From Filomicrobium insigne (GTDB taxonomy: Bacteria; Pseudomonadota; Alphaproteobacteria; Rhizobiales; Hyphomicrobiaceae), in contig NZ_FNJC01000002.1 in assembly GCF_900104305.1 (NCBI RefSeq), forward strand, positions 248,001-312,000: DNA of 64,000 nt, given 5' to 3'. The notes beneath the pieces were generated by a model, which was not told the DNA's origin, searched no databases, and saw only the letters and a program-made list of their open reading frames with translations. This document shows, one piece after another, positions 2,710-59,195 of this stretch. The translations under genes were made by a program, and so were the position numbers. The first letter of the stretch is position 1; each line of letters starts with the position of its first letter.

Positions 2710-3377
2710 GCCGCGATCAGATTCTTGCAAAGGTCCGAGCCGCGATCTCTGACGCAACACCACAGCTTCAGCGCCGAGCAGCCGCCGAAGCCCGTGTCGC
2801 CAAGCCGTCGCGTAGCGCACCACCATTGCAACGCGTCTCACGTCCGACACAGGAACTGATTGAAGTCTTCAAATACGAGTTGGGCCGGCAATCAGCGAAC
2901 GTGATCGAGGCACAAGGTTCGATCCCTCAATCTATCGCGGCCTACCTGCAAGAAGCCGCTCTCCCACCAACACTACGTTGCGGTTCAGATTCGCGGCTCA
3001 CACGACTGCAATGGCGCGACGCGCCCACGCTGGCGCTTCAACATGGCCCCGCCGCTGCCCAAGACGACATCGGCCTATCCCACGCGTTTTGCGGAATTGC
3101 CGAGACGGGCACACTCGCATTGCTGTCCGGGCCGGAGAATCCCGTAACCCTCTGTTTCCTGCCCGATACACATATCGTCGTTGTCCGCCGCTCTGACATC
3201 GTAGCAAGCTACGAAGACGCCTACGTTCGGCTCAGACACCTGCTCGGCGAGCGGCGTATGCCGCGAACGCTTAATCTTATTTCAGGGCCTTCCCGCACTG
3301 CCGACATCGGCGGAAAAATCGTCATTGGCGCGCACGGTCCGCGGCGCCTGTGTGTCGTAATCGACAACACAAACTAA
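2706..3377 (+). CDS. lutC: LutC lactate utilization protein (LUD domain)
   Basis: This 223-residue LUD-domain protein has the family glycine-rich block GIAETGTLALLSGPENP in its middle and the terminal HGPRRLCVVIDN segment. LutC is the third component of the lactate oxidation complex. The ATG at 2706 overlaps the lutB stop by four bases; a longer in-frame start at 2502 lies deep inside lutB and was discarded. No dedicated lactate permease or lldD-type dehydrogenase is visible inside the window, so any transporter must lie upstream of base 1 or elsewhere. Confidence 0.88.
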   Translation: MSRDQILAKVRAAISDATPQLQRRAAAEARVAKPSRSAPPLQRVSRPTQELIEVFKYELGRQSANVIEAQGSIPQSIAAYLQEAALPPTLRCGSDSRLTRLQWRDAPTLALQHGPAAAQDDIGLSHAFCGIAETGTLALLSGPENPVTLCFLPDTHIVVVRRSDIVASYEDAYVRLRHLLGERRMPRTLNLISGPSRTADIGGKIVIGAHGPRRLCVVIDNTN

Positions 3378-3413
3378 ACGCACTTGAAACTAATCGATTT
3401 CGCGGAACGCCAC

Positions 3414-3641
3414 TTACTTCCGCTTGCAGGAACGCAGACACTTGATGAGCTGCGCGTCACACTTCGAACTGTCGAGCGAGGCCTGTCGGGTGCGGCATTT
3501 GTTGTGCTCTTCATGACATTTGGCGCAGCCATCGGCAGCAGCCGTCTCAGCAAAGCTAGCAACCGTAACCGCCAACCCGGCTGAAAGGCAAAGCCCCGCG
3601 AGCCCCAAGAATATTGCGCGTCGTGTCAAATCGAGCCTCAT
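3414..3641 (-). CDS. Small exported Cys-rich protein, unknown function
   Basis: Starting at the ATG at 3641 gives 75 residues. A basic start (MRLDLTRR) and a hydrophobic stretch (residues 9-30) ending near ASFAETAAA look like a signal peptide. The mature part holds six cysteines (39, 42, 49, 61, 68, 72). The first two form CAKCH, which formally matches a c-type haem site. The other four cysteines and the very short length argue for a disulfide or metal-binding mini-protein instead. It is convergent with lutC, 36 bases away. I recognise no family, and function is unknown. A longer in-frame extension to 3875 overlaps the next gene and looks non-coding. Confidence 0.6.
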   Translation of the reverse strand: MRLDLTRRAIFLGLAGLCLSAGLAVTVASFAETAAADGCAKCHEEHNKCRTRQASLDSSKCDAQLIKCLRSCKRK

Positions 3642-3825
3642 CAGATCTTGGTTTGAAAGAACACCGCATCGGCCAAGCTGCAGGCCAAAAATGAAATGCG
3701 CCACCCATGCGGATGACTCATATCGCAGGTTCGATGAACGTGACCTGAACTTGCAATCAAACACAACCTGGGGATGCAACAACCCACAGCGAACCTTTAG
3801 CCTCGCCCGTATCAAAGCGAACGGG

Positions 3826-5208
3826 CTACATCGCGGTCTCAGCAAAGACCCACGAAATATCGCCAGCCCACGCACCGTGATACTTTTCGAGAAGCTGATC
3901 AGCCACCGTACGACGCGAATCGACGATGTCTTCTAAAGGCGCCAGATATTGCCGTTCATCTGCGCCCGATGAATCGCAGAAATTGCGATTGGCGAGCCCC
4001 TTAGCGGCCAACTCAACCATCTCACGCGCAAGGTCAGCAACATGTCCGCCACGGAAGGGCGTCTCAAGCGCCAGCCTGGGGACCTCATCACGGAGTTTCT
4101 GACGCTCGTCCGCCGTCCAATCTTTAACGCGGTCCCAAGCCGCATCCAGCACATCAGCGTCATAGAGCAGGCCAGACCAAAGCGCTGGCAGCGCATTGAT
4201 CATCTCCACCCGGCCGCCATCTGCGCCCCGCATTTCCAGGAACCGCTTCAAACGCGCTTCTGGGAAAAGCGTTGTTAAATGATCCGACCAGTCATCCAGC
4301 GTCGGAAGAATGCCCTCCAGGCCGACAAGCTTACCAGCGAGAAAATCTGCGAAAGAAGCGCCCGCGACGTCGATGTAATGTCCGTCGCGGTAAACGAAGT
4401 ACATCGGCACCTTGAGCGCATAATCGACAAAGGCCTCGTATCCCATGCCCTCTTCGAAAGCGAACGGCATCATGCCCGTACGATTGGGATCGGTATGACG
4501 CCAGATCTCGCTCCGCATTGATTTGAAGCCGTTTGGCTTGCCTTCCGTGAATGGCGATGAGGCAAACAATGCCGTTGCCACCGGCTGCCAGGCCAACGCA
4601 ACCCGAAGCTTTTTGACCATGTCCGCTTCGGATCCAAAATCCAGATTGGCCTGGATGGTCGCGGTCCGATACATCATGTCGAGGCCACGCGTTCCGACCT
4701 TCGGCATATAGCTAGTCATGATGCCGTAACGCTTTTTTGGCATCCGCGGCATGTCCTCGAAGGTCCATGTCGGCGCAAAACCGAGGCCCAGGAAACCAAG
4801 TCCGAGCGGCCCGCCGGCACGGTGGCATTGCTCCAGGTGCTGCTGCGTTTCAGCTGCCGTTTCATGAACGGTACGAAGGGGTGCTCCGGAAAGCTCAAAC
4901 TGCCCACCGGGTTCGAGACTGACCGTTGCTCCAGGCTCACCAATCGCACGTTTCAATGCGATCATGTTGCCGTCTTCAATAATGGGTTCCCATCCGCAGC
5001 ACTTCATGAGCCCGGACATCAGCGCGTTGATGCCGGTTTCGCCGTCGTAAGCAACGGGTTGCCGCGTCGCTCCATGAAACACGAACTTTTCGTGTTCGGT
5101 TCCTATGCTCCAGGCGTCACGCGGCTTTTCGCCGGCAGCAATCCAGGCGACAAGATCATTGCGTGAGTTAATCGTTTCGCTCGGCGCTGCGTCCTGACGG
5201 GTCGACAT
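3826..5208 (-). CDS. gshA: Glutamate-cysteine ligase, plant/alphaproteobacterial type
   Basis: This 460-residue enzyme catalyses ATP-dependent joining of glutamate and cysteine, the first step of glutathione synthesis, in the cytoplasm. The start segment ends in WSIGTEHEKFVF, a signature of the plant/alphaproteobacterial class (GCS2/EgtA-like fold). SLEPGGQFELSGAP and MYRTATIQANLDFGSE are further conserved blocks. The length is normal. It is transcribed on the minus strand downstream of rsmE with a 186-base gap, an order seen in many Rhizobiales. The glutathione synthetase partner is not in this window. Confidence 0.93.
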   Translation of the reverse strand: MSTRQDAAPSETINSRNDLVAWIAAGEKPRDAWSIGTEHEKFVFHGATRQPVAYDGETGINALMSGLMKCCGWEPIIEDGNMIALKRAIGEPGATVSLEPGGQFELSGAPLRTVHETAAETQQHLEQCHRAGGPLGLGFLGLGFAPTWTFEDMPRMPKKRYGIMTSYMPKVGTRGLDMMYRTATIQANLDFGSEADMVKKLRVALAWQPVATALFASSPFTEGKPNGFKSMRSEIWRHTDPNRTGMMPFAFEEGMGYEAFVDYALKVPMYFVYRDGHYIDVAGASFADFLAGKLVGLEGILPTLDDWSDHLTTLFPEARLKRFLEMRGADGGRVEMINALPALWSGLLYDADVLDAAWDRVKDWTADERQKLRDEVPRLALETPFRGGHVADLAREMVELAAKGLANRNFCDSSGADERQYLAPLEDIVDSRRTVADQLLEKYHGAWAGDISWVFAETAM

Positions 5209-53690: not shown

Positions 53691-54404
53691 TTAGTCATGT
53701 TGTGCAAAAGTGTGCCACGTGCCATCAGCCCCAATGGCAAGGCGATACCACGTCCATTTGCCAGATTTGATGATTGCTGAAGCCTGCTCTGGACCAACCA
53801 TCCTATAAAGTTCAACTTTTTCACCCGGCGTGAATTGAGCGGGCGGCTTCTCCGACATGTAGGGCCAAACGTAGACCGCATTGTTTTCAAGATCCGGCCC
53901 GATAGGAAGCTTCGCGGGCGGCCCTTGCAGTATTTCGCCAAGTATCGAGAGGATCTCAATCCCGTCCCCGGCCATGTTCGCCTTCCAATATGCGATCGGA
54001 TCACTGTTCGCATCCAGACCAAAGTCCGGACGCAGCTCGTTCCATTCGATAGCCGTTCTGAGTTCGTCAAAATCGCCGCGGACTACACCTGCAAGGATCG
54101 CATCCCGCATTTCTTGCACGGCAATGGGCAACTCCCCCAAAGGAACACGCACTAACTCTGGCTTTTTCTCCCCCTCGGACTGTGGCATCTCGGCCTTCTG
54201 AGACGCCGCGACGCCCGCTGTAGGTTCCGCCAATACGCCCGCCGTAAGGCCCGCACAATAGACAATGCTAGACAGCCCAACTAGGAATAGCCGTCGAAAC
54301 CTACGCCAGGGGGACTGGGCGGCCAATATCGGGAGGAACAGCGATTGAGGGATTACACGACAGGCACTAACATTCTTGGAAGAACGCGACATAGATCTGC
54401 ACAT
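53691..54404 (-). CDS. Exported protein of unknown function
   Basis: The ATG at 54404, preceded by GGGGGAG, gives 237 residues. A hydrophobic segment (RLFLVGLSSIVYCAGLTAGVL, residues about 38-58) looks like a signal anchor after a basic tail. The rest is soluble, with GDFDELRTAIEWNELRPDFG and several Trp/Tyr residues near the end. I recognise no family. It may be an envelope protein specific to Hyphomicrobiaceae. Confidence 0.6.
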   Translation of the reverse strand: MCRSMSRSSKNVSACRVIPQSLFLPILAAQSPWRRFRRLFLVGLSSIVYCAGLTAGVLAEPTAGVAASQKAEMPQSEGEKKPELVRVPLGELPIAVQEMRDAILAGVVRGDFDELRTAIEWNELRPDFGLDANSDPIAYWKANMAGDGIEILSILGEILQGPPAKLPIGPDLENNAVYVWPYMSEKPPAQFTPGEKVELYRMVGPEQASAIIKSGKWTWYRLAIGADGTWHTFAQHD

Positions 54405-54517
54405 AATCAACTACTCCCCCACTTAAGTGTGACGGCTTCGCGCCTACGCTCCGTGGCAACCGACAGTATACCCGCACACGCGCACTGCCACTGTGGCGTT
54501 CCTCGGTGGCCCACCCA

Positions 54518-57281: not shown

Positions 57282-57506
57282 GGACGCAGCCCGCTTGGCA
57301 CCGCCACATTCGCCACACCTGCTTGGTAAATTGAACAAATCAATTGCGAATACTGTCTGCCCCCTCGCTTCCCAATTCGAGTGCGGTTAATCTGCCACGG
57401 CCCAGACGCGCAATTTACCGAGTGAGTTCAGGGCGATTAGAGCGATGGCCATAGGGCGCATTGCTTGATGTAAGCGAGCAGAACCCCGCGTATCGGGAGA
57501 GTGAGT

Positions 57507-59195
57507 ATGGGCTACAGAGGCGAAGACCTGGATTTGCGCACGACGCGAACCTGGAGTGGTCGAGGTGAAGGCGACTCTGACACAGCCGGCCCCGACGCGA
57601 TTTTGGATCCTCTTGCATCCCCACCTGACGGCCACGGTCCGATATGGGTCGATGACCTCCTGCTCACCTGTTGTAACCACGCCTATGAAATCGCGCTCGC
57701 CCACCGCTCGGGCGAAGTGCGTATCGAGCATCTGCTCTACGCCCTGACCCGCGTCGAAGAAGCCGCTGAAGTTCTGGAAAGCTATCGCATCAGGGTGGCC
57801 AGCCTTCGCCGCGAGTGTGGCATCGTTATAGCTGTCGAGCTTCCCGTTGGATTGGACGGAGAAGACAGCGCGCCGCGGCGCCAGCCAGCCCTTGAAGACG
57901 CGCTCCGAACCGCAGCACACTTGGCCTTCCGCCGGAAGAGCCCGGCGGGCGTTGCCGATCTCCTACAGGTCTTCGTTGATCTGCGACCGGATCTTCCAGG
58001 CCTCGACCTCCTCCATCGCTTTAGCTTGGTCAACAATCGCGACTACTATCGCTCGCGCTCATCTGCCTTCGAGCCGGACTACAACGATTATTCGACGCCG
58101 CGGGAGCGTCCACGCCGCCCAGCGCGACCAAGTTATCCAGACGAGCATTTTCCGTCCGCCAGCGCGGTTCGCTACAACATCCCCCAACCGCTCAACGACA
58201 ACACACAAAATGCACGCCTGGACGCTCTCGTACGCATGATCCAGACGTTGAGCGACGACCTCGCAAAAGACCGCGACAATCTCACGTCTACCTTCAAAAA
58301 ACTGCAACGAGACCTCGGAAACCCACCAACGTCCGGTGCGTCATCTACAGTTATTGAAAGTATCTTTGAAAAGATTGCCACCCGCCTTGATGCACTGGAA
58401 CAAGTGGTGCGAGAAGAAACCGGCGAGTCAGGACGGTCGCTCTCAGCCGTTTCCGCGCGATTGGCATCTGTCGAAAATCGCATCGCTGATAACCGCGACA
58501 CAGGCGTTGACCTGGGCCCAATAGAAGACCGGCTTGGCGAAATCGAATCCGCCTTCCTGAGCCTGAGCAGCGACACCGATACGGCCACGCGGATTGATGC
58601 ACTCGAAGCGACCTTAGTCGCAAAGCTTTCAGAAGCAGAAGAACGGGCCAATGCCGCAACCAACACCCAATTGGAAGCTCGAGCCCACGTTCTATCGGTA
58701 ATTGAAAGCAGCCTCGCCGGACTTACGACAAGCCGCGAAGCCGCGCAGGCACTCCGCGAAAAAAATGCCCAGCGTCTCGAAGCCATAGAGACACTACTCT
58801 CGCGGCAGACACAGCCAATCGATGACACACGCCAAGCTGACCTGCTCAAGCTTGATGAAGTGCATCAGGCCATCATGACGCTGAATGAGAACCAGCACAC
58901 GCTGGCTATGGCCATCCAGGCCTTCCGTTCCGCAAGCGTTGAACATGTCCAAACGATCGAAACCCGCCTCGCGCGTATCGACGCCAGCAACGAGGCCCCG
59001 GTCGCGCAGCTTCACCGCATGTCTCAACGCGTCGACGATCTACATCGCGCAGCGCTGGAACGCGATCATCGCCGAAATCGCTTCTGGTATTGGCTGTTCG
59101 GCACAAAGGACTGGCTCGCGGCAAGCTGGCCAAACCCGGTAAAGCAAACCGAAGAAGAACTACGCGCCATCAAGGACAGTGCATCGTCGACGTAG
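57507..59195 (+). CDS. ClpN-like domain and long coiled coil, unknown function
   Basis: Starting at ATG 57507 (GGGAGAG 6 bases upstream) gives 562 residues. Residues 45-172 resemble two Clp N-domain helical repeats: DDLLLTCCNHAYEIA with EHLLYALTRVEEA, then LEDALRTAAHLAFRR with DLLQVFVDLRPDLPG. No AAA+ ATPase follows. After a Tyr/Arg/Pro-rich linker (180-220), residues 230-515 are a long heptad-like coiled coil. The end NRFWYWLFGTKDWLAASWP is aromatic-rich and may touch membrane. I know no function. Convergent with tsaC, 10 bases apart. Confidence 0.7.
   Translation: MGYRGEDLDLRTTRTWSGRGEGDSDTAGPDAILDPLASPPDGHGPIWVDDLLLTCCNHAYEIALAHRSGEVRIEHLLYALTRVEEAAEVLESYRIRVASLRRECGIVIAVELPVGLDGEDSAPRRQPALEDALRTAAHLAFRRKSPAGVADLLQVFVDLRPDLPGLDLLHRFSLVNNRDYYRSRSSAFEPDYNDYSTPRERPRRPARPSYPDEHFPSASAVRYNIPQPLNDNTQNARLDALVRMIQTLSDDLAKDRDNLTSTFKKLQRDLGNPPTSGASSTVIESIFEKIATRLDALEQVVREETGESGRSLSAVSARLASVENRIADNRDTGVDLGPIEDRLGEIESAFLSLSSDTDTATRIDALEATLVAKLSEAEERANAATNTQLEARAHVLSVIESSLAGLTTSREAAQALREKNAQRLEAIETLLSRQTQPIDDTRQADLLKLDEVHQAIMTLNENQHTLAMAIQAFRSASVEHVQTIETRLARIDASNEAPVAQLHRMSQRVDDLHRAALERDHRRNRFWYWLFGTKDWLAASWPNPVKQTEEELRAIKDSASST

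Follow-up and report, generated by a model that had tools for sequence, protein, structure and literature searches.

Clp N-domains have been studied almost exclusively as pieces of AAA+ machines, and a gene in the stretch of 64,000 nucleotides analysed here (the window) raises the question of what such a domain does when it sits on a long coiled coil. The preliminary description of the locus had read the gene as ClpN-like repeats followed by a long coiled coil without an AAA+ motor, and this observation was confirmed by our analysis: the domain architecture is well supported. That description had also suggested a scaffold or adaptor; this interpretation is supported in part, and the role that we propose below, an anchored scaffold or adaptor, is put forward more tentatively.

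Gene start and modular organisation

The open reading frame, which we call clpN-coiled-coil, encodes 562 amino acids plus a stop and occupies positions 57507-59195 of the forward strand exactly. An alternative in-frame GTG is found two codons 5' of the ATG; we set the start at the ATG because the homologues likewise open with M-x-Y-R-G and because a GGGAG sequence lies seven bases before it. The gene and its parts are as follows:

57495..57499, + strand: likely ribosome-binding site GGGAG, 7 nt 5' of the ATG, read from the sequence
57507..59195, + strand: clpN-coiled-coil gene; open reading frame with start and frame kept in homologues
57507..57548, + strand: N-terminal motif, residues 1-14 (MGYRGEDLDLRTTR; family MxYRGxDLDLRTPQ); mean pairwise identity 79%
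57639..58022, + strand: Clp N-domain, residues 45-172, two helical repeats; from Pfam, PDB profile, and AlphaFold2 with Foldseek
58023..58196, + strand: variable proline-rich linker, residues 173-230; mean pairwise identity 13%, pLDDT mostly below 50
58197..59051, + strand: helical coiled-coil rod, residues 231-515; heptad periodicity and helical model, length differing between homologues
58881..58907, + strand: conserved LNxNQHTLA motif near the rod end, residues 459-467, from the alignments
59052..59141, + strand: C-terminal aromatic module, residues 516-545 (family RYHRRNRFWYWLFGTDDWxxxSWPSQ); mean pairwise identity 68%

Conservation sits in the N-terminal motif (mean pairwise identity 79%, more than in any other module), the Clp N-domain (56%) and the C-terminal module (68%), as against 13-34% in the linker and rod; binding ends joined by a spacer would be expected to show such a profile. 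The exact pattern of the N-terminal motif has one match in its own genome, which is the clpN-coiled-coil gene itself, and a search with exact or near-exact patterns returned no further protein of that genome with either the N-terminal or the C-terminal motif. The invariant N-terminal peptide may serve for docking as a short motif of its own. Pfam showed no AAA+ domain, and NCBIfam gave weak partial matches far below the cut-off; the protein has no AAA+ motor.

The Clp N-type head and the ClpS-contact residues of ClpA

The Clp N-domain that had been described at the start of the protein was recovered here by sequence and by model. The Pfam family Clp_N (PF02861) matches residues 59-103 with 26.2 bits against a curated cut-off of 20.7 (E 8.8e-6) and was matched independently in 15 of 20 homologues (E <= 0.001), this Pfam match spanning the first Clp-N repeat and not the second. 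Both repeats (residues 54-166) are covered by the E. coli ClpA N-domain when a family profile built from 15 homologues is compared with the PDB (E 9e-10); the sole other match is the N-domain of malarial ClpB2, which is weak (E 0.02). A phmmer search of residues 1-182 against the PDB also returned the E. coli ClpA N-domain (E 0.001), the rest being unconvincing. For AlphaFold2 modelling, the input was the protein and three homologues, and the alignments are shallow because they hold these four sequences. In the resulting head model, pLDDT is about 85-95 across most of residues 50-160, and helices at 50-65, 73-82, 84-92, 97-111, 127-141, 149-159 and more form a two-repeat all-helical fold. When this model was searched against the PDB with Foldseek, all 50 matches listed were Clp/Hsp100 proteins, mostly their N-domains (ClpA 1k6k, TM 0.76; ClpB 1khy, TM 0.78, normalised to the target). 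On both grounds the head is assigned the Clp N fold. A ClpB-type origin was considered and rejected, as the profile is weaker for it (E 0.027 vs 0.00035 for the ClpA of the same genome).

ClpA, the AAA+ unfoldase of ClpAP, therefore offers the nearest PDB sequence and shares the two-repeat Clp N fold. It differs in possessing AAA+ rings and, by sequence comparison, in lacking the N-terminal motif, whereas clpN-coiled-coil has instead that motif, the rod and the aromatic C-terminus. The genome encodes clpA with clpS upstream, plus clpB, and given this nearest relative and the presence of both clpS and clpA, one could suppose that the free N-domain binds ClpS in the manner of ClpA, with N-degron recognition sequestered or localised as a result. 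The contact residues speak otherwise. PMC12493166, citing Zeth 2002, gives E23, E28, T81 and R86 as the contacts of E. coli ClpA to ClpS. All four are kept in the eight aligned ClpA N-domains, that of the organism itself included, but two of them, E23 and R86, are lost in 21 of 21 clpN-coiled-coil proteins; the E28 position is Glu in 18/21 and the T81 position is Thr or Ser in 18/21. Because E23 and R86 are missing from every member, ClpA-style docking of ClpS is unlikely, and because the Clp fold is kept while these residues are lost, the head is altered over at least part of the surface with which ClpA contacts ClpS. As judged from these residues, the lost contacts argue against a simple ClpS decoy, although not against other binding, and an adaptor role of the ClpS/ClpA type is weakened; we consider a ClpS-holding function very improbable. 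The family has head invariants of its own, D49, V71, R82 and P113 among them, and those that depart from ClpA (for example R82, where ClpA has D, S or E, as well as D49 and P113) suggest a new binding surface.

The coiled-coil rod and the aromatic C-terminus

The long coiled coil that the preliminary description had placed at residues 230-515 stands: the heptad-like hydrophobic periodicity of this region is 0.93, compared with 0.33 +/- 0.09 for shuffled sequences, and none of 500 shuffles reached 0.93. The full-length AlphaFold2 model, at low confidence, has residues 231-531 mostly helical, and the rod amounts to about 285 mostly helical, heptad-periodic residues. It probably drives oligomerisation, and it would space the head from the C-terminus.

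In the aromatic module at the far end of the rod, W529, L530, G532 and T533 are invariant in the alignment. The module was not found outside clpN-coiled-coil in a class-wide sample of 289 genomes, where besides the gene itself we saw weak partial matches (E about 0.004-0.008) that we treated as chance. That this C-terminus docks at a membrane, as had been proposed, is at most suggested. The segment is strongly conserved and, with an interfacial score of -6 to -7.5 kcal/mol over the 12 residues around FWYWLFGTxDW, it is strongly favourable for an interface in most members. However, the 11 members computed have no transmembrane anchor (maximum 19-residue hydropathy at most 1.26) and no amphipathic C-terminal helix, the hydrophobic moment being just 0.09-0.14. 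As the C-terminus is not transmembrane and has nearly no hydrophobic moment, a protein partner is equally possible. We infer that the aromatic end patch of the rod anchors the protein; the membrane interface and a partner protein both fit as its site of attachment. The aromatic segment is weaker or altered in some divergent members (L048, L050 and L051).

Distribution, motor-less relatives and possible roles

We surveyed 79 genomes of the Hyphomicrobiaceae that are at least 90% complete, and the N-terminal profile gave exactly one match in each of 70 of them, in 19 of the 23 genera, so that conservation extends well beyond the genus. Neither of the two findings that would have spoken against the preliminary description, a missing Clp-N match and a restriction to the genus, was thus obtained. 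Of 59 relatives, 32 yielded homologues, and among the members with a name are Hyphomicrobium zavarzinii and Hyphomicrobium sp. Across the order, comparable profile scores are confined to this family and one divergent member elsewhere. The latter (L051:5423-7423, in genome G058 of a different family) has a degenerate N-terminal motif and an altered C-terminus, and its surroundings differ and include ORFs resembling secD and secF. Most of the loci read share the gene order LysE, DUF2385, (NUDIX), SRAP, clpN-coiled-coil, Sua5 and acyl-CoA dehydrogenase, with extra genes inserted ahead of Sua5 in some. The window also holds, at 53691-54410 on the reverse strand, an ORF of 239 amino acids that lacks a Pfam match at E <= 0.01; among the loci compared, 15 conserve it.

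None of the genes in this shared order points to proteolysis, which counts against a scaffold or adaptor reading and favours its main rival, a structural protein of the cell envelope or cell pole in which the coiled coil and the C-terminal anchor do the work and the Clp N fold merely mediates protein interaction or capping, unconnected with proteolysis. Conservation is higher in the C-terminal module than in the Clp domain, the module's interface-seeking score in most members fits such a role, and the family includes Hyphomicrobium, which buds from stalks. Yet conservation is good in the Clp head too, which has invariant residues of its own; we hold the structural role to be unlikely, while ranking it first among the alternatives.

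Clp N-type domains without a motor are already known in other proteins. Plant ClpT1 and ClpT2 resemble clpN-coiled-coil in being Clp N-like accessory proteins without a motor, but they are small, belong to the stroma and sit on the ClpPR core, and they are not known to carry a coiled coil or tail. ClpT1 interacts with Hsp100 chaperones (PMC4243950). Mycobacterial ClpC2 likewise has Clp_N without AAA+ domains, and our model has the Clp_N domain of ClpC2 among its structural matches (8ad9, 8b9o). PMC10030653 has ClpC2 dimerising via its own N-terminal domain and controlling its own gene as a transcription factor; ClpC2 is shorter than clpN-coiled-coil, and the text consulted describes neither a long coiled coil nor an aromatic tail for it. 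According to that source, ClpC2 acts as a sponge for cyclomarin A, and the head of clpN-coiled-coil could in a similar manner take a peptide, natural product or damaged protein bound for ClpA or ClpB and so shield the machine. Such a trap would need neither the invariant N-terminal motif nor the long rod nor the conserved aromatic C-terminus; no counterpart of the repression that ClpC2 exerts on its own gene (PMC10030653) was seen here, and the head does not retain the ClpS-contact residues of ClpA. We regard a sponge function as quite improbable.

A paralogue in the same genome, adjacent to argB, also has Clp_N (41.4 bits, a better score) and no AAA+ domains, and it differs in that its linker is rich in proline, a region towards the C-terminus is conserved and the C-terminal segment is hydrophobic, with no coiled coil seen. 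It is 618 amino acids long (L037:5569-7425; contig C5 of G000, about 205568-207424), and its conserved C-terminal region has no Pfam match. Its neighbour is argB both in this genome and in several relatives (L052, L055, L099, L102 and L103), and the same GTPase and YidC-like genes have homologues nearby in L052 and L055. L099 comes from a different family of the order, and there a gene for a second Clp_N protein (2832-4883) stands directly behind the Clp_N/proline-rich gene (777-2660). The tail of this second protein is long, helix-rich and, judged by eye, heptad-like. It is apparently an independent combination of Clp_N and coiled coil, and therefore the two may have been joined on more than one occasion. 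A literature search did not find the architecture of Clp_N, coiled coil and aromatic tail described; among the motor-less Clp_N proteins it is new and lineage-specific.

Our preferred reading, to which we give somewhat less than even chances, is that clpN-coiled-coil encodes a scaffold or adaptor that is specific to the Hyphomicrobiaceae and probably oligomeric, its Clp N head put to a new use and its C-terminus serving as the anchor. The ClpA-type N-domain, with its ClpS-holding surface altered, would be a binding head for a client or partner, carried on a coiled coil that oligomerises and anchored by the aromatic patch. The Clp N matches and head model, the heptad periodicity, the conserved ends, the single copy in most family genomes and the synteny in most loci count for the scaffold or adaptor reading; the low-confidence model of the rod and the non-amphipathic C-terminus count against it, as do, for the anchoring, the divergent members with a weaker or altered C-terminal segment. 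A bolder version, that a ClpA recognition head on a cytoskeleton-like rod places substrate recognition at a fixed site (membrane, pole or stalk) without a motor, seems to us rather improbable; if true, the rod-borne head would be a way to localise Clp-type recognition without a motor. A single-copy, family-wide Clp head on a rod, with its ClpS site altered, would show a second use of the domain. The family, to which the budding Hyphomicrobium belongs, is under-studied; the gene gives work on it a defined target and offers a direct route to ask what motor-free Clp N-domains bind.
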